Source: Procambarus clarkii
Lineage: Eukaryota; Arthropoda; Malacostraca; Decapoda; Cambaridae
DNA length: 64,000 bases
NCBI RefSeq assembly: GCF_040958095.1
Contig: NC_091237.1
Coordinates: 11,397,058-11,461,057, forward strand
Direction of reading: 5' to 3'
This document shows, one piece after another, positions 3,354-62,690 of the stretch. The position numbers and the translations under genes are program-made. The notes beneath the pieces were generated by a model. It did no database searches. It saw only the letters and a list, made by a program, of their open reading frames with translations, and was not told the DNA's origin. Every line of letters begins with the position of its first letter. The stretch's first letter is position 1.

Positions 3354-3455
3354 GCGTCCATGCGTCAGTCCATGCGCCAGACCATGGCGTCAGTCCATGC
3401 GTCAGTCCATGCGTCAGTCCATGCATCAGTCCATTCTCAGCGTCAGTCCATGTGG
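3354..3455. repeat. 12-bp tandem repeat (CATGCGTCAGTC type)
   Basis: A degenerate run of about eight copies of a 12-bp unit built on CATGCGTCAGTC. Some copies have an ATGCAT or ATGGCG variant. Confidence 0.85.
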
Positions 3456-4985: not shown

Positions 4986-5080
4986 ATCATATTAATCGTT
5001 CAATACCAACATTATTCACCTCTGGCGTTGATGAGTAGTTGAGAGAGCGGCTAGTTGCCCCGATGGTGCCCCGCGCTGAC

Positions 5081-5625
5081 GTCTGTGGGTACTGCACCCT
5101 TGCCCTGGGGTACTGTACCCCTGCCCTGGGGTACTGTACCCCCTGACCTGGGGTACTGTACCCCTGCCCTGGGGTACTGTACCCCTGCCCTGGGGTACTA
5201 TACCCCTGCCCTGGGGTACTGTGACCTGGGGTACTGTACCCCTGCCCTGGGGTACTGTACCCCTGCCCTGGGGTACTATACCCCTGCCCTGGGGTACTGT
5301 ACCCTCTGCCCTGGGGTACTGTACCCCCTGACCTGGGGTACTGTACCCCTGCCCTGGGGTACTGTACCCCTGCCCTGGGGTACTGTACCCCCTGCCCTGG
5401 GGTACAGTACCCCTGCCTTGGGGTACAATACCCCTGCCCTGGGGTACAGTACCCCTGCCTTGGGGTACAGTACCCCTGCCTTGGGGTACAGTACCCCTGC
5501 CTTGGGGTACAGTACCCCTGCCCTAGGGTACTGTACCCCTGCCCTGGGGTACTGTACCCCTGCCCTGGGGTACTGTACCCCTGCCCTGGGGTACTGTACT
5601 CCTGCCCTGGGGTACTGTAATCGTC
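5081..5625. repeat. 21-bp near-palindromic minisatellite
   Basis: About 26 copies of a 21-bp unit whose core GGGGTAC-T-GTACCCC is a perfect palindrome around one central base. The centre is T from 5,081 to about 5,400, mostly A from about 5,400 to 5,530, then T again. Two units are shortened, at about 5,221 and 5,331. Both strands stay open through the array because 21 is divisible by three and the unit lacks stops. Confidence 0.96.
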
Positions 5626-5639
5626 GAGGGGTACATAGG

Positions 5640-6120
5640 TGAAGCTTCTGGTGTACAGGTAGAAGTACAGTGATGGTACAATTTGGTGGAGGTACATTTG
5701 CGCGGTGAAAGAATGGTACAATGGGGTAGTTAGTGATTAGTAGAGTTGTAAAGTAGTACAGTGATTTATTAGTCCAGTGGTACAGTGGAAGAATAATTTA
5801 TTAGTAGTGGTACAGTAAAATAGTAATTGATTAGTACCGTGGTTCAGTGGTACTGTGATTTATTTGTACAAGTGTACTGTGGAATAGTAATTTATTGGTA
5901 CCCTAGTGCAATAGTACAGTAATTTATTACTACAGTGGTAGAATGGAACAATAAGTTATTATACAGTGGAACACCAATTTATTAATACAGTGCAACAGTA
6001 ATTTTTAGTACAGTGCAACAGTAATTTTTAGTACAGTGCAACAGTAATTTATTTGTACACTGGAACAGTAATTAGTACCACGAAACAATGGTGCCGCAAA
6101 ACATTGACAAAGTGTGTGAG
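5640..6120. repeat. Degenerate 20-30 bp repeats (GTACAGTGG / AGTAATTTATT)
   Basis: AT-rich sequence with recurring GTACAGTGGAACAGTAATTT modules at irregular spacing, for example three near-identical blocks at about 5,985-6,050. This is an ageing tandem array without any gene. Confidence 0.75.
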
Positions 6121-20849: not shown

Positions 20850-22420
20850 TAACTTCTGAAGCATATGAAGTCTGTCTGAAACATGTGCCTTTGAGGAAAG
20901 CCAGAAAGAGGTCCAACGTAGAAAGAGAACGCAGACGACACTACAAAAGAAGGAAAAATAACGGAAATTATTAAACAGACACGACTTTCCATACAAAGAA
21001 GGAATAATTTAAACAGGGAAATTGAAGAAATCGGACAGACTGAAGCATTCGTATCAGACTGAAGAAAGGGAACTACAACAGAAAGCAATTCAAGAAATAA
21101 AGAAAAATCAAAAATATTTCTTCACATATGCGAAATAAAAAGCAAAAACACTTTCAGTATTGGACCTATTCGTACAAGTGAAGGTTCATACACGGAGGAT
21201 GACAAAGAAAATAGTGAAATCCTAAAAGAGTAGTATGAGGACATGTTTAGCACTCCAAAAAACAGCATGAAAGTGGAAGATCCGGACAACTTCTTTATGC
21301 GTGATATCAAACCCCTGTAAATATAACTAATATCAACACGAGCGTAGCAGATTTTGAAAGGGAAATTGACAACATGTCCATACATTCAGCCCCGGGGCCA
21401 TACTCATGGAATTCAATTTTTATAAAGAAATGCAAGGTGCCAGTAGCACAGGCACTCAGTATAATGTAGAGGAAGAGCTTGGACACGGGGTAGATACCAA
21501 GACGCTTAAATCAGCAGACATAGCCCCTCTACACAAGGGAGGGAGCAAAGCATTGGCAAAGAATTATATACCAGTTGCACTAACGTCCCACATAATAAAA
21601 GTATTTGAGAGTGATCAGGAGTCAGGTCACTAGTTTCATGGAAACCAATGACCTCCACAACCCAGGCCAAAATGGATTTAGAGTAGGAAGATCATGCCTC
21701 TCACAGCTACTTAATCATTACAACAAAATCACTGAGGCATTAGAAGAAAAACAGAATGCAGATGTGGTATACATGGACTTTGCAAAGGCATTCGATAAAT
21801 GTGACCATGGAGTGATAGCATACAAAATGATAGCAATGGGAATAACTGGTAAAGTAGGACGCTGGATACTCAGTTTTCTGTCGAGCATAACACAAAGGGT
21901 AACAGTCAATAATAGAAAATCGAGTCCAAGCACAGTTAAAAACTCTGTACCTCAAGGTACAGTCCTTGCACTACTGCTCTTCCTTATACCCATATCGGAT
22001 AGACTCAAATACAAGTCACAGCTTCGTATCATCCTTTGCAGACGACACAAAAATCAGCATGAAAATTAATTCTGTTGAAGACATTGAAAAACTACAAGCA
22101 GATATTAATAAAGTTTTTGACTGGGCAGCACACAATAAATAACATGATGTTTAACAGTGATAAATTCAAGGTACTCAGGTACGGTAAAAATGAGGACCTT
22201 AAACATAAAACAGTACACAAACACAATCAAATCTGCCCATAGTAGGAAAACAGCATGTAAAGGATTTGGGAATAATGATGTCTGACGACCTAACGTTTAG
22301 GGAGCATAACCAAGCAAACATTGCATCGCCAGAAAAATGATAGGATGGATTACAAGAACTTTCAAATCCAGAGACCCCACCACAATGGTTGTACTCTTCA
22401 AATCACTTGTGCTGGTTGAT
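20850..22420 (+). pseudogene. LINE family C remnant (RT)
   Basis: Begins in the basic linker (RRRHYKRRKN at about 20,930). RT text follows: KSADIAPLHKGGS and NYIPVAL (about 21,510-21,580), then FRVGRSCLSQLL, motif A YMDFAKAFDK (about 21,767) and motif B VPQGT (about 21,945). A frameshift near 22,010 moves motif C out of frame; FADDTKISM is readable at about 22,035-22,060 in another phase. A stop follows at about 22,139. The C-terminal block TRTFKSRDPT is at about 22,350. It is inactive but retains all three catalytic motifs across frames. Confidence 0.85.
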
Positions 22421-33559: not shown

Positions 33560-34290
33560 CAGCTATGAATGGTTGGGAGTACCACGTAAGATTTAAAAGT
33601 CCCGCAACTTCACTAGGTTTACATCAGCTTCCTCAGTGCTCGTCAACACACGCCATTTTTTTAATAAATTGTGGGCAACATTCCCTAGTGTGAGAACCTC
33701 AGTACTGAGTGAGCAACCAAGGCATCGCCTAAAAATGTCAAAATACGTATGTAACTGGTATCACTTAGCCATGATAGAATTACAGAAAAGCCTGACTGTG
33801 TTTACTAGTTGTGTTTTTGCGGGGGTTGAGCTTTGCTCTTTCGGCCCGCCTCTCAACTGTCAACTGTTTACTATTTTTTTTTTTCCCCCACACCACACAC
33901 ACACACACACACCCCAGGAAGCAGCCCGTGACAGCTGACTAACTCCCAGGTACCTATTTACTGCTAGGTAACAGGGGCACTTAGGGTGAAAGAAACTTTG
34001 CTCATTTGTTTCTGCCTCGTGCGGGAATCGAACCCGCGCCACAGAATTACGAGTCCTGCGCGCTATCCACCAGGCTACGAGGCCCCTCCCCTGTGATAAA
34101 GACTGTGTACAATGTTCAGATCTCAGTGAACATAATGCTGTTCAAGATGTTCACAATGCTAGCCACAGCACATAGCCATTGTTTCGTCCATCTAAGAATC
34201 TTCAAAACTTTTGTGTTTCTTTACAAAATAAACGTGTGGAAAATTATTCATTTACAGGATTTAGTGACCAGGATTCTGACGATAGCAGGA
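33560..34290 (+). repeat. Dispersed repeat family F, copy 1
   Basis: Shares ordered blocks with 48,545-49,660: AAGATTTAAAAGTCCCG, CTTCCTCAG, GAGTGAGCAACCAAGG, GCCTGACTGTG, AAAGACTGTGTACAATGTTC and TTTACAAAATAAAC. A SINE sits in this copy. It lacks the Tigger element present in copy 2 and so shows the empty site near 33,744. Confidence 0.8.
33800..34088 (-). repeat. tRNA-derived SINE in family F repeat
   Basis: B-box complement GGGAATCGAACCC at 34,023-34,035 and the body word CAGGTACCTATTTACTGC. The left part includes CA and T runs. Flanking CTGTG words on the two sides match one CTGTG in the unoccupied family F copy, indicating a short target duplication. Confidence 0.85.
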
Positions 34291-38970: not shown

Positions 38971-39282
38971 GTGGGTCATTCCATGTGAATTCACCAAAGG
39001 CCTCCCACTCGACCCTTTCTAAATCTAATGAAATTTTGTAATAAAGTAGCCCTAGACCCCAAATGAAATTGTGCAAAATATTAGAGCTCAATCTGCTTTG
39101 GTTCTTAAATAATAGGTCCATGTTCAATGGGCTCTCATCCCGTTACTGCGTACATATCGTAAAAAGGGCCAACTTTGACCCTTTATCAAATCACGTCTAG
39201 TGCCCAGAGAGGTGCGAAATATGGCATACCAGGACAACTTTTGGTGTGAAATACAGCAGTGTAATAAAAAAAAGTAGGACCA
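38971..39282 (+). mobile_element. Solo end of long-arm transposon N1
   Basis: Matches 56,278-56,545 closely, starting TGGGTCATTCCATGTGAATT and running to GTGTAAT before an A-rich run. It keeps about 41 bp after CAAATCACGTCT that the other copy lacks. It abuts a minus-strand LINE tail at 39,285. Confidence 0.8.
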
Positions 39283-51099: not shown

Positions 51100-53638
51100 A
51101 AGTGAAACGTCTAAATGGGAATAGAAATGAAGAAAAATTATTTTTTCTACAAAGTATTAGGGACTGGAATGCTTGTGAAATGGTACATTAAAAACAAAGC
51201 ATCAAAATTATTAGAGGAAGGGGAAGTAAATGACAAATGGAAAGGGGTACAAGTTCCTGAAAATTGTAAATACCAGTACAGATGGAGTGAGATAAAATAT
51301 ACTTGAGCTAAACTATATAATTCTGCTTAAGGTCCCAGATATTGTCGCACTAACAGAAGAAACTTGAAAATACTTGAAATGAAGTTGTATTCCCAAGGGG
51401 CTACTCAGTTTGGAGACATGACAGGAAAACTAGGAAGGGGAAAGGAGTGGCTGTGCTTGTGAAAGAACACCTGAAAGTAAGAGTGTTAATAATCAAAAAC
51501 CCTCGAGGAGTTAATATAATGGCATTGCAGGTCTGGAATCAGGGATGATACACTGATAATCTTAAATGCCTACAGCCCACCATCAAACAACACATGGACA
51601 AAGGAGGAACTAGATGATAAACAAGAGGGCCTCATAATGGTCATGAGAGAGATTATAGTAAAAGCAGATAAAGATAAATCATGATTGTTGGTACTGGGGG
51701 ATTTTAACTTGAAAACAATAAATTGGGAGGCCAATGAAGCAAGAACGGAGGATATTTGGACAGGCAGATTTGTAAACTTCATTCTGAAGACATTCACATA
51801 TCAACACGTCAAGCAGGCCACAACTACGAGAAACAACTACACAGCAGTGAGGAAAGAGGCAGAAAGAAATTTTGAAAAAGGGATTGCGGACAAATGTAAA
51901 ACAGAACCAGGTCTATTCTATAAATTCATAAACAACAAATTGCAGGTAAAGGATAATATTCAGAGGTTGAAAATGGGAAATAGATTCACGGAAAATGAAA
52001 AAGGAAATGTGTGAAACATTAAACGAAAAGTTCCAAAGTGTGTTTGTACAAAATGAAATCTTCAGGGAACCAGGCATAATAAGAATTCCAGAGAACAACA
52101 TAGAGCACATAGAGGTGTCTAGAGATGAAATGGAAAAAATGCTCAAGGAGCTAAGTAAGAACAAAGCAGTTGGTCCAGATGGAGTTTCACCATGGGTTCT
52201 GAGAGAATGTGCACCTGAGCTCAGCATTCCACTTCAGCTGATTTTTCAGGCATCCCTGTGTACAGGAGTTGTAGCTGATGTGTGGAAAAAGGCTAACAGT
52301 TCCAATCTATAAAAGTGGCAGCAGGGAAGACCCCTCTATTATAGACCTGTATCATTGACAAGTGTAATAGTCCAAATACTGGAACGAATAATTAAAGCTA
52401 AATGGGTAGAACACCCGGAGAAAAACTATATATCAGACAGACAGTATGGTTTTCGATCTGGAAGACCCTGTGTAAGGAATGTACTCAGTTTCTATGATTG
52501 AGCCACAGAAATTTTACAGGAGAGAGATGGTTGGGTTGACTGCATCTATCTGGACCTAAAAAAAGGCTTTTGACAGAGTTCCACATAAGAAGTTGTTCTG
52601 GAAACTGAAACATATTGGAGGGGTGACAGGTAAGCTTCTAACATGAATGAAAAATTTCCTAACTGATAGAAAAATGAGGGCCGTAATCAGAGGCAATGTA
52701 TCATATTGGAGGAATGTCAAAAGTGGAGTACCACAGGGTTCAGTTCTTGTACCGGTAATGTTCATTGTCTACATAAACTATCTACCAGATGGAATACAGA
52801 ATTATATGAACACGTTTGCTGATGATGCTAAGATAATAGGGAAGATCCTAGATGATTGTCATTTCCTTCAAGAAGACCTGGACAAAATAAGTAAATGGAG
52901 CACCACTTGGCAAATGGAATTTAATGTGAATAAATGCCATTTTATGGATGTGAAATTGGAGAACATAGACCCCACACAATCTATAAATTATGTGAGGAAT
53001 CTTTAAAGAATTCTGACAAAGAAAGGGATCATGATTCTAGATAGAAAACTGTCACCTGAGAACCACATTAAGAACATTGTGCGAGGAGCCTATGCTACAC
53101 TTTCCAACTTTAGAATTGCTTTTAAATACATGGATGGAGAAATACTAAAGAAATTGTTCATGACTTTTGTTAGACCAAAGCTGGAATATGCAGTGGTTGC
53201 ATGGTGCCCATATCTTAAGAAGCACATCAACAAACTGGAAAAGGTGCAAAGACATGTCACTAAATGGCTACCAGAACCGAAAGACAAGAGCTACGAGGAG
53301 AGGTTAAAGGCATTAAACATGCAAAAACTAGAAGATAGAAAAAGATGCGATATGATCACAACATACAAAATAGTAACAATAAAATTGATAGGGAAGAATT
53401 CCCGAGACCAGGAACTTCAAGAACAAGAGGTCATAGATTTAAACTAACGAAACAAAGCTGCTTGACAAAGAAAATTCACTTTTGTAAACAGAGTGGCAGA
53501 TGGTTGGAACAAGTTAGGTGAGAAGGTGGGAGGCCAAAACCGTCAGTAATTTCAAAGCATTATATGACAGTGCTGGGGAGACGGGACACAGCGAGGGTAG
53601 CCCTCATCCTGTAACTACACTTAGGTAATTACAAGATT
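51100..53638 (+). pseudogene. LINE family A, longest copy, internally deleted
   Basis: Endonuclease text VPDIVALTEET (about 51,330), GKGVAVLVKEHLKV (about 51,440) and LVLGDFNLKTINWE (about 51,690). Near 51,835 the text jumps to the linker AVRKEAERNFEKGI, so the endonuclease end with SDH is deleted. RT follows: KAVGPDGVSPWVL (about 52,165), FGFRSG-like text, DLKKAFDRVPH split by a +1 shift at about 52,560, GVPQGSVL (about 52,727) and an intact FADDAKIIGK (about 52,815). The C-terminus with FVRPKLEYAVVAW and KLEDRKRCDMITTYK ends near 53,445. All RT catalytic motifs survive, though several stops and shifts make it inactive. Confidence 0.9.
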
Positions 53639-56071: not shown

Positions 56072-56637
56072 ATTGACTGAGTTCCAAACAAGAGGTGGTT
56101 TTAGCAACAAACATGCTGGAGGGGTGACAGGGAGACTTCTGACATGGATGAAAAATATTCTAACTGACAGATGAGGGCAGTAATCAGAGGTAATGTATCT
56201 GACTCAAGGAGTTTTACAAGTAGAGTAAGTACCACAGTGTTGCACTAGTAATGTTCATCGTCTACATAAACGATCTGGGTCATTCCATGTGAATTAACCA
56301 AAGGCCTCCCACTCGACACTTTCTAAATCTAATGAAATTTTGTAATAAAGTAGCCCTAGACCCCAAATGAAATTGTGTAAAATATTAGAGCTCAATCTGC
56401 TTTGGTTCTTAAATAATAGGTCCATGTTCAATGGGCTCTCATCCCATTGATGCGTACATATTGTAAAAAGGGCCAACTGTGATCCTTTATCAAATCACGT
56501 CTTTGGTGCGGAATACAGCGGTGTAATCAAAAAAGTAGTTTGGGTAGCCATTCAGCTACCAATCCATGCTAAAATCACTGCCAAATTTTGTTGTGAGGAA
56601 TTTGGACCCCAATTTGGAGACCACTTACTCATCACCA

Positions 56638-56997
56638 AAAGGTCTAAATGCCATGATCTTTTGCAACGATGTATAACAAGCACAATATTATGCAGTGATG
56701 CAATAGCATCTCTGTTGTATCCATATGTCCAGAGGTGGCCCACTTGAAAGTTGGCCAGAAAATTTTTTATGTGCAAAACTATCCAACTTTCAAGACAAAA
56801 TATCTCAATATGCATCATTCCCAATTTGATTTTGAATGACGCCATTGGATAGAGCAGATTTTTCTGTACAAGAGTAACTTTTATTTAGGTTGGGATCTGA
56901 ATTCCTAGTTCAGCCAGAGGACTCTGAAAATGACATACCTTGGTGCGATATAGAAAAAATCAAATTATGATTCTCCATCTTTGTGCAGTGATCATGA
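56638..56997 (+). repeat. Left inverted arm of transposon N1
   Basis: From AAAGGTCTAAATGCCATG to ATTCTCCATCTTTGTGCA. It pairs with 58,254-58,607. Confidence 0.9.
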
Positions 56998-58253
56998 CTG
57001 CTAGCAAATTGATATCCAAACTGATTGGAAAAATTTTAAGCTTCATTGGGTAGAACATTTTTGGATGGGATTCAGAATTATTATTACACAATCAGTGCTA
57101 TTTTAGGTTCCTGTTCTATATTTATCTTTACATCTTTGTAGTATCGTGTCAGCAGGCCAAACATTGCTGTTTACTTATTTGTGTATTTACTTGCAATAAA
57201 TACACAAATAAGTAAAAAGCAATATTAATATTAATGTATTACAGGCCTCATTTGAAATTACTGTATTCAGTTAGTTAACTAATTTGATTTGAATTTGATT
57301 ACAGATACGTCATGAATCAGGATTCCACTGGTTTATTGCCATGTGCTATTGCTAGCCATGAGCTTGGCTCTTCTGAATGTCACTTGACAACCTACACTCT
57401 CAACAAAGGCTTGACGTTTCTAAAACAGTATAGTGCAGAAGATCAAAAACGGATAGCAAAGTGAAGTGAACTGAACTTGGATAGAGTATCTCAAGTATGC
57501 CTCCATCATGAAGCTTTGCTGTTGGCAAAATATGAATTTTTGCAAAAAACTTGCTGCAATCTCTTCAAGAAGAAATGCCATGTAAAGTGAAAGATTTGCG
57601 ACCAATCACAGTAGCTACTGCAGAGAAAATGTCAGATATGCTGAAAGTCAGTATCAAGCCTGGCCAAAAGTTGTGCACATCATGCTGAAAGGAATTCGAC
57701 AGAAAGCAGGTGAGCGAGTCCAGCTCTACTGAATCTGATGGCCCTGCTGATATGGAAATCTGTGAAAGTGTAAACACAAGTTTATTAGTATTAGGCATCT
57801 CACCTATTAAATATCAACGAGTTAGTGGAAGGGATAAGCATGGTTAGGCAAAGCGCAAGATTAGCCAAGCACAGGAAATAAATGCCGAGCAGATAAAGCA
57901 GATACCAAGCTCTAGCTAACAGTGCACAAATTGCCAAGACTTCAATAAACTCATTGAAGAAATGAAACTAAAATTCCATGTAGCAAAGCGCCAAGAAAAA
58001 ATACAAATCCTAACCCTTGTGCCACAAAGCTGGTCTATCAAAAAGACAATGGAGCAATTCAAAGTTTTAGAATATATGGTTCACGAAGCTAGGAAGCTGA
58101 AAGAAAAACAGGGAATACAGTACTAGCAATTCCTAAGAAAATGCAGGGCAAATCAGTTCCTGAGGAAATGAAGGAAAGGATAGTACAGTTTTGAGAGTGA
58201 AGAATTTAGTCGAATATGTCCCGGAAAGAATGGAAAGAAAAAAAGTCATAATC

Positions 58254-58607
58254 AGTGCACAAAGAAGATGGAGAATCATAATTTCATTTTTTCGATATCG
58301 CACTAAGGTATGTCATTTTCAGAGTCCTCTGGCTGAACTAGGAATGCAGATCCCAACCTAAATAAAAATTACTCTTGTACAGAAAAATCTGTTCTATCCA
58401 ATGGTGTCATTCAAAACCAAATTAGGAATCACGCATATTGAGATATTTTGCCTTGAAAGTTGGCTAGTTTTGCACATAATTTTTTGGGGGCCAACTTTCA
58501 AGTGGGCCACCTCTGAACATATGGATACAACAGAGTTGCTATTGCATCACTGCATAATATTGTGCTTGTTATACATCGTTGCAAAAGATCATGGCATTTA
58601 GACCTTT
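58254..58607 (-). repeat. Right inverted arm of transposon N1
   Basis: From TGCACAAAGAAGATGGAGAA to ATGGCATTTAGACCTTT. Differences from the left arm are scattered substitutions and small indels. Confidence 0.9.
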
Positions 58608-58619
58608 CTATTTAGACCA

Positions 58620-59510
58620 ATAAAAAATATTGTTTTTTTCCTCCTGGCGGTCTACGTAACGTGCTATAGCTGCCCCAAGTGGACCCGTCCAACACTGGTC
58701 AACCCATGTGCTCATGTCCCTCGTGTTATACTACAGTGCTGCGCCATTAGTGAAATATTATTTTAAATAACTTTTTTATTTTCATAGTAACTTTAAACAT
58801 TTTTGGCCAAGACTATGTTTGGTAGCAGCATCAATCGTTCTGGAGGTGTTAAGAGGAAGAAGGTTGTCCTAGCAATTAAAGATAAGTTACGTTTTGTTCA
58901 ACCAGTGAGGCGTCACAGGCAGCCAAATGCCTTCAACAAGTGAGGCACAAGCAAGCGCCTTCAACAAGTGAGGCGTCACAGGCAAGCCAAGCGCCTTCAA
59001 GTGAGGCTTCACAGGCAAGCCAAGCGCCTTCAACAAGTGAGGTGTCACAGGCAAGCCAAGCACCTTCAACTAGTGATGCGTCACAGGTAAGCCAAGCGCC
59101 TTCAACAAGTGAGGCCTCACAGGCAACCCAAGTGCCTTCAACCAGTGAGGCTTCAGCAGCTGGCAGTCAAAACTAACTTTGCTTAATGAACTGTACAGTA
59201 ATTTTAAGTGTTAATTTTAGTGTTGTGTTAATATAGGTTACGTAAATTGTTAAGAATTCTTAACTTCAAGATGTGTGGCATCAATCAAGAAGACGAACAC
59301 CAACAAGGTAAGTTGAGGTTTCTAGATGAATATTTAATAATTATATGTGGCAAGGCAATTCAAATTATGTTGTTTGTAGTATAAAAATAGTTGGAAATGG
59401 TCACTTTTGGACTCGTAGGTGAAAAAGTACCATTATCCGAAAAATGTGATAATCCAGCTGGGGGTCCTTCCCATATACAGTAGTCCGGATGATCGAGTGG
59501 AGACAGTATT
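58620..59510 (+). pseudogene. Tigger-type remnant with an internal minisatellite
   Basis: At 58,815-58,905 the frame reads MFGSSINRSGGVKRKKVVLA, then IKDKLRF, a pogo/Tigger N-terminus. It then runs into a 12-residue repeat at 58,918-59,158. The element appears to end near 59,508 with CCGGATGATCGAGTGG and GAGACAGTA, a Tigger-like end. The catalytic domain is missing. Confidence 0.65.
58918..59158. repeat. 36-bp minisatellite encoding (APSTSEASQASQ)n
   Basis: About seven copies, in frame on the plus strand with substitutions such as EVSQ and DASQVSQ. One unit is three bases short (PSSEA), keeping frame. Purely three-base indels suggest amplification while the frame still mattered, or chance. 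Confidence 0.9.
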
Positions 59511-61099: not shown

Positions 61100-62690
61100 T
61101 CGTGTGTGTACACTCACCTAATTGTGCTTGTGGGAGTTGAGCTTCTGCTCTTTGGTCCCGCCTTTCAACCATCAATCAACTAGTGTACAGATTCCCGAAT
61201 CTATTAGGCTTTATCATATCTATACATGAAATTGTCTATGAAGTCTGCATTTATCACATCACTATCTACTGCATTCCATCTCTTAACAACCGAGACTGAA
61301 AATGTTCTTTCCAACATCTCTATGGCTCACCTGGGTACTCATCACTTGTGTTAAACTACAGTATCCACCATATCAAGTCCTCTTAAAAATCTTTTGTGAT
61401 CATGTCTCCCCTAATTCTTCTTTTTTCCAGTGACACAAGGTTCAGTTCCCGTACCCTCTCCTCATAACTAATACTCCACAGCTTGGGTACTAGTCTGTTG
61501 GTATACCTTTGAACCTTTTCATATTTCGTCTTCTGCTTGACTAGATATGAACTCCATGCTGGAGCCGCACACTCCAGGATTGCTTTGACATGTGGTACAC
61601 AAGGGTTCAAATGAGTCCTTGCACAAGTTTTAAAAGGCTATTCTTATGTTTGCCAACCTAGCATATGATGCTGATGTGGGCTTCAGTGAAAAGTCTGGCA
61701 TTATATCAGCTTGCAGTTCTCTCTCTCCCTGATTCTTGAAGGATTTCATCTCCCAAAGGATACCTTATATCTGGTTTCCTGCTCCCTACACTTACCTTCA
61801 TTACTTTATATTTGCTTGGGTTAAACTCTAATAACCAATTGTTGAACCATTCACTCAGTTTGTTCAGGTCATCTTGTAGCCTCAAGCTGTCCTCCTCTGC
61901 TTTAATCCTCCTCATATTTTTAGCATTATCAGCAAACATTGACAGGGATGAGTTTATATCCTCTGAAAAATCATTTACATATATTAAAAACAGGATAGGT
62001 CTGAGTACAGAACCCTGTGGGACTGCTAGTGACATCATGCCATTTGGAGGCCTCACCCCTCACAGTAACTCTGCTTCCTATTGTATAGGTACCACCTCAT
62101 CCACTGGAGTACCCTGCCCTTTATGCCTGCCTGTTTCTCCAACTTTTGGACCAGCCTCTTAGGTGTTACTGTGTCAAAGGCTTTTCGACAGTCCCAGAAA
62201 ATAGACTGCCCACTGTTCTCTTTTTTACCATATCTTTGTCAAGTGGTCAAATTTGCATTAAATTTGCAAGGCAAGATTTGCCATCCCTGAACCCATGTTG
62301 TTGTTGTTGAGCCACAAAGCCCTTCTCTCCAGATGTGTTGCCAAGTTTTTTGTCATGATCTCCATCACCTTGCATGGTATACAAGTTAGGAACACTGGGC
62401 TGTAGTTCAGTACCTCTTCCCTTTGTATACTGGGACTAAATTAGCTGTCTTTCCTACTTGTTGTAGGTCTCTTGTTTTCAGTGACTCATTACATCTCTTG
62501 GCTTCTGCACACTTTTAGTATCCATAAGAGATTCCATCAGGTCCAACAGCCATTCTCACGTCCAGATCCTACAGATACCCTTAACTTCGTCTCTGGTAAT
62601 TTTGAACCCTTCCAAAGCTGCCTGGTTTATTACCACCTCTCTTAGCTCAGGGATCTTTCCCTGTTCTACTGTGAAGACCTGGAATCTATT
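61100..62690 (-). pseudogene. LINE family A remnant, RT to 3' end, minus
   Basis: Minus-strand text in order: [20 protein letters not shown] (about 62,030), FADNAKNMRRIKAEE (about 61,930), LEFNPSKYKVMKVSVG (about 61,830), then ILECAAPAWSSYLVKQ (about 61,570) and RVRELNLVSLEKRRIRGDMI (about 61,440). Upstream RT text with decayed frames extends to about 62,690. Motif C is FADN. The 3' tail includes the TAATTGTGCTTGTGGGAGTT word. Confidence 0.87.

Follow-up and report, generated by a model that had tools for sequence, protein, structure and literature searches.

What kind of mobile element lies at 56277-58607 of the 64,000-nucleotide stretch of Procambarus clarkii DNA analysed here (the window, contig NC_091237.1; positions are those of the whole stretch), and by what means could it have spread? 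A first-pass annotation, made from the sequence alone, had described a DNA transposon with long inverted arms, thought to represent a new or poorly described group and to be present as an internally shortened copy. Here we delimit the element, compare it with its relatives in the same genome and weigh the superfamilies to which it could belong.

Ends, arms and gene fragment of the window copy

The left end of the element is fixed by the reverse-transcriptase relic that hosts the insertion (56073..56276, plus strand). This relic is 75% identical to 52570-52783, and because the alignment runs to 56276 and then stops, the insertion junction lies at 56277 and not, as annotated before, at 56278. 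The other copy of the interrupted relic, in the 52570-52783 region, matches Pfam RVT_1. Reverse-transcriptase fragments matching this model were found in three of the six ORFs tested in the window (21599-22066 and 52647-53003 on the plus strand and 61709-62059 on the minus strand), the second of which is that other copy. Elsewhere in the window, 4987-5797 is repetitive and open in several frames on both strands, and the sole tRNA call, a tRNA-Thr (CGT) at 34013-34083 on the minus strand, could represent either a gene or a repeat of tRNA origin.

The inverted arms noticed in the first pass are real (56638-56999 and 58244-58607, 92.4% identity over 368 aligned columns, E=5e-153; without gaps, segments of 215 nt (94%) and 119 nt (98%)), but they are only the inner halves of longer ones. 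Query positions 1-723 match the opposite strand at the far end of many copies, so the full arms have roughly twice the length of those paired in the window, and two-ended copies carry arms of some 700-800 bp. The left (5') terminal inverted repeat thus covers about 723 bp (56277..56999, plus strand), and its right counterpart survives as the inner half only (58244..58607, minus strand). The outer 361 bp of the left arm, from the terminus to the paired arm, lack a partner on the right of the window copy, where the outer part of the right arm (about 360 bp), present in other copies, is missing at 58607. The terminus GGGTCATTCCATG is indeed present, at 56277, but it lies 361 bp outside the paired arms.

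With zero mismatches, this terminus occurs at exactly two sites in the window, 56277 and 38973; with up to two mismatches there are seven matches versus 1.65 expected, the remaining five lying inside a tandem repeat at 3362-3452. The site at 38973 begins another left end of this family, cut short at about 39277 (plus strand), so the solo end that had been placed at 38,971 exists, but it starts slightly further on and consists of one piece of 227 bp (96%) followed by one of 38 bp (87%). At the damaged end of the window copy the sequence changes abruptly beyond 58607 into repeats of ATTTAGACC, a pattern compatible with a repair junction. Just to the right, 58889-59100 holds diverged direct repeats with mostly 33-36 bp spacing, a sequence that we take to be Tigger/pogo-like.

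Inside the element we found a 67-bp hairpin (57160..57226, unstranded, with 30-nt arms at 93%; query 884-950 matches the opposite strand), which is kept in many copies in the genome, and a broken gene of which the 5' part is present (57312..58270, plus strand), interrupted by frame changes and stops, which enters the right arm at about 58244-58265. The fragment runs from a stretch with CxxC motifs over SWSIKKTMEQF (from 58028) and SRICPG (from 58208) into the right arm. The first of these two motifs was found as annotated, and of the second, given as SRICPGKK, the first six residues hold, but the full stretch reads SRICPGKNGKKK. The fragment holds a weak helix-turn-helix-like stretch, for which Pfam HTH_23 gave only E=0.16, below the cut-off. 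No Pfam model scored above the cut-off with the window fragments (besides HTH_23, SAMP at E=0.12 for an ORF in the arm) or with a read-through piece, P0001 (Peptidase_C71 at E=0.12, zf-RRPl_C4 at E=0.47), which also had zero matches to PDB sequences and an AlphaFold mean pLDDT of 32.8. Patterns from the window protein matched eight times in viral contigs and 20 times in genome contigs, and none of these matches was confirmed by tblastn; the 14 hits to the terminus pattern in viral contigs reached at best E=0.074 in blastn and were attributed to chance.

A dispersed family with a 4-bp target-site duplication

When the crayfish's own genome (4.03 Gb) was searched at the DNA level with 56277-58607, a first look returned 326 candidates; 40 of these were scored and yielded 179 matches. 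Among the matches listed, at least 39 rows besides the window's own had E=0 and 86-94% identity, at least seven other copies cover query 1-2331 and at least one covers 9-2331. Since these seven copies span the whole window element with the same structure (40 of the 326 candidates scored), the shortened form itself has multiplied, which bears out the earlier description as an internally shortened copy. From 38 loci fetched with their flanks (L052-L089), both ends were found in 13 by a pattern allowing three substitutions, the other 25 being left uncounted. Eleven of the 13 share the structure of the window element, and the other two (L073 and L074) belong to a second subfamily.

The two-ended copies are mostly about 2.8 kb long (2679-3373 bp for the 11 of window type), and their terminal inverted repeats start GGGTCATTCC. 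A single continuous alignment of the arms was obtained in six of the 11 (702-807 columns, 79.7-88.5%); the arms of the other five align in pieces. The outer part of the arms, about 225 bp, differs more than the inner part, as query 226-726 matches at 87-90% (L063, L070-type) versus 77-85% over 1-723. When oriented by the gene, ten of the 11 copies start with an end of the ...GTGAATTCACC type and finish with one of the ...CTCAAATCACC type, with substitutions. L068 (585-3957) carries the two end types in the opposite order with respect to the gene fragment, and of the 11 this copy is the most diverged from the majority sequence (10.6%), to be compared with 3.0-5.4% in the ten others and 3.6% in the window copy. 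Judged by this divergence, the repeat family would be fairly young.

Target duplications were determined, as had been proposed. In the 13 two-ended copies the mean identity of the flanks was 0.87 at 4 bp versus 0.23-0.42 at 2, 3 and 5-9 bp; the 4-bp duplication was exact in eight copies (CAGT, TTTA, TTAT, AAGG, TTAT, TATA, TATA and AGTG) and matched at three or more of the four positions in 12, and control pairs made by swapping flanks were exact at 4 bp in seven of 156 cases, with an identity of 0.30. The exception is L055, with one of four positions at 4 bp and five of five at 5 bp. The large number of two-ended copies, together with the 4-bp duplication, supports the reading as a DNA transposon. 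Inverted repeats also arise by rearrangement, but the dispersal over many contigs with fixed ends, and the target-site duplication, speak strongly against a repeat made by chance or in that way, a probability that is practically negligible. We conclude that 56277-58607 (plus strand) very probably belongs to a family of non-autonomous cut-and-paste DNA transposons, as a damaged copy that lacks its right end.

The length of the duplication also bears on the choice between superfamilies. Kolobok elements target TTAA. The same target is given for piggyBac in PMC7351741, and membership in either group would account for a duplication of 4 bp, but TTAA was found in none of the eight exact duplications, which makes both very improbable. 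The arms lead to another comparison. Very long inverted repeats are typical of Mutator-like elements, and in this respect the family is alike. A Mutator-like (MuDR) element would also agree with the 4-10 bp that PMC10045372 gives for IS256 and MuDR together; plant Mutator duplications, however, measure 7-12 bp as described in PMC10741241, whereas 12 of the 13 copies fit 4 bp and a signal was seen only at 4 among the lengths 2-9, so that we regard this assignment as improbable.

Superfamily assignment and the presumed catalytic half

A new or poorly described group, as the first-pass annotation suggested, is not the best reading, since a 4-bp duplication together with long arms are published features of Sola (PMC10741241). 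That description gives Sola a DDD transposase, 4-bp duplications, a length of mostly 2-9 kb and inverted repeats of 11-1124 bp, and the 702-807 columns of the arms lie within this range, which is a permissive criterion. In addition, PMC3627910 attributes AT-rich 4-bp duplications to Sola2, and five of the eight exact duplications here are all A/T; one Sola cluster also appears in a survey of crayfish repeats (PMC7859515). A catalytic domain linked to these ends, such as that of the DDD transposase of Sola, was not found in the copies examined. From the duplication, the length of the arms and presumed family motifs of the protein, membership in Sola specifically, a narrower claim than that of a non-autonomous family, appears to us only slightly better than an even chance, since the arm length is permissive.

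Another described superfamily with duplications of 4 bp or similar length would be a second option, namely Ginger1 or Ginger2, a PHIS relative or Academ. Ginger1 ends are TGT, against the GGG with which the ends here start, and Academ duplications measure 3-4 bp. Ginger1 elements combine their 4-bp duplication with an integrase-like transposase. According to PMC10045372 the duplication measures 4 bp in Ginger1, 4-5 bp in Ginger2 and at most 4 bp in PHIS, which agrees with the family. An integrase-like or PHIS-like Pfam match was absent from the fragments, which weighs little because the fragments are the 5' part of the gene, and we consider these superfamilies possible but doubtful. IS481EU was set aside, as the definition in PMC10045372 has TGT...ACA termini, in place of the GGG starts here, and reports the group only from parabasalids.

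The search for the catalytic half was made with motifs and with protein comparisons. Two motifs expected of the catalytic protein were absent from 46 loci of the same genome (some of them overlapping and one being the window copy), and neither a copy with a catalytic domain nor an autonomous copy was found among the loci examined. A presumed catalytic motif had one match with three mismatches in the window, as chance expects, and 0, 0 and 7 matches in viral contigs, the seven lacking a match to P0002, the protein of the contig L027 described below. Of its 22 matches in genome contigs, a single one (L027) lies in a long ORF of the expected kind. Judging by their translations the remaining 21 are chance matches; among them, L021 gives an alignment of 35 aa with P0002 (E=0.028) in the region of the motif itself.

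The ORF on L027 (990-3107, minus strand) encodes a transposase-like protein of 705 aa; the contig comes from a bacterial MAG (isolate Cli_8) and is probably eukaryotic contamination. It carries VDFSEN, SDGPSSQFK and HGKGxxDGxGG, which we take to be family motifs, as well as D..D..D-like motifs, and the latter, in a putative relative, would favour Sola. P0002 had only a chance match (E=5.4) among the 46 loci and zero matches in a first-look search of the whole crayfish genome, an empty answer that is uninformative without a known positive. It had no match among plasmids and E=0.2 against phages, no Pfam model above the cut-off (GST_C_7 at E=0.041, DUF5018-rel at E=0.13), and among PDB sequences matched only basic regions of C/EBP beta and a ribosomal protein (E of 1.1-6.3); its mean pLDDT was 37.5. 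The window element and L027 are alike in a short resemblance around the PG motif, but the alignment scores with the window fragments were reached by 577 of 2000 and 1273 of 2000 shuffles and are not significant, which also takes weight from the assignment to Sola. Around the ORF no 20-nt inverted pair at 17/20 was found, only short ones such as one of 18 nt at 89%. Because of the shuffle-level alignment and the zero matches in the crayfish's own genome, L027 is a lead on the missing half and not evidence for it. If the gene fragment belonged to a widespread transposase family that no Pfam model matches above its cut-off, with the L027 motifs VDFSEN, SDGPSSQ and HGKGxxDGxGG, then the ends, the 4-bp duplication and the unequal arms of about 700-800 bp could define a superfamily separate from Sola, which we hold to be rather unlikely.

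Two shortened subfamilies and their probable mobility

Another result concerns the second subfamily (L072-L077), which has the same ends and the same first exon as the main one and different internal DNA. Majority sequences of a 377-base stretch of the first exon were made for the main subfamily, with the window copy and 29 of 32 loci, and for the second, with all six loci. In both subfamilies alike the majority frame stays open over about 100 codons before it meets a stop, which favours non-autonomy. L072 reads on in a single frame beyond this stop, so not every copy is broken there. That the extra DNA of the second subfamily could be the catalytic half was rejected on account of zero matches to P0002 and a tandem repeat in L072. 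This repeat (L072:1616-2203) has a 32-bp spacing, lies between the inverted arms and has its unit matched in L073 and L076.

For the non-autonomous family as a whole we propose that an ancestor lost the rest of its gene, presumably including the catalytic domain, and that the shortened form, whose structure is common to the copies, then multiplied. As the gene remnant comprises only the 5' part, movement would have needed a transposase in trans, which a longer relative would supply and which would bind the shared ends, cut them, excise the element and insert it at a staggered 4-bp cut of the target; the window copy would later have lost its right end. Against this proposal stand the absence of an autonomous copy from the loci examined, the continuing frame of L072, the fit of L055 to 5 bp and the greater difference between the outer parts of the arms.

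With its ends, size and target duplication given, the family can now be annotated in this 4-Gb animal genome instead of being left as an unclassified repeat. The analysis leaves the general picture of transposon biology unchanged; what it does show is a pair of internally shortened derivatives that have long arms and a broken gene in common.
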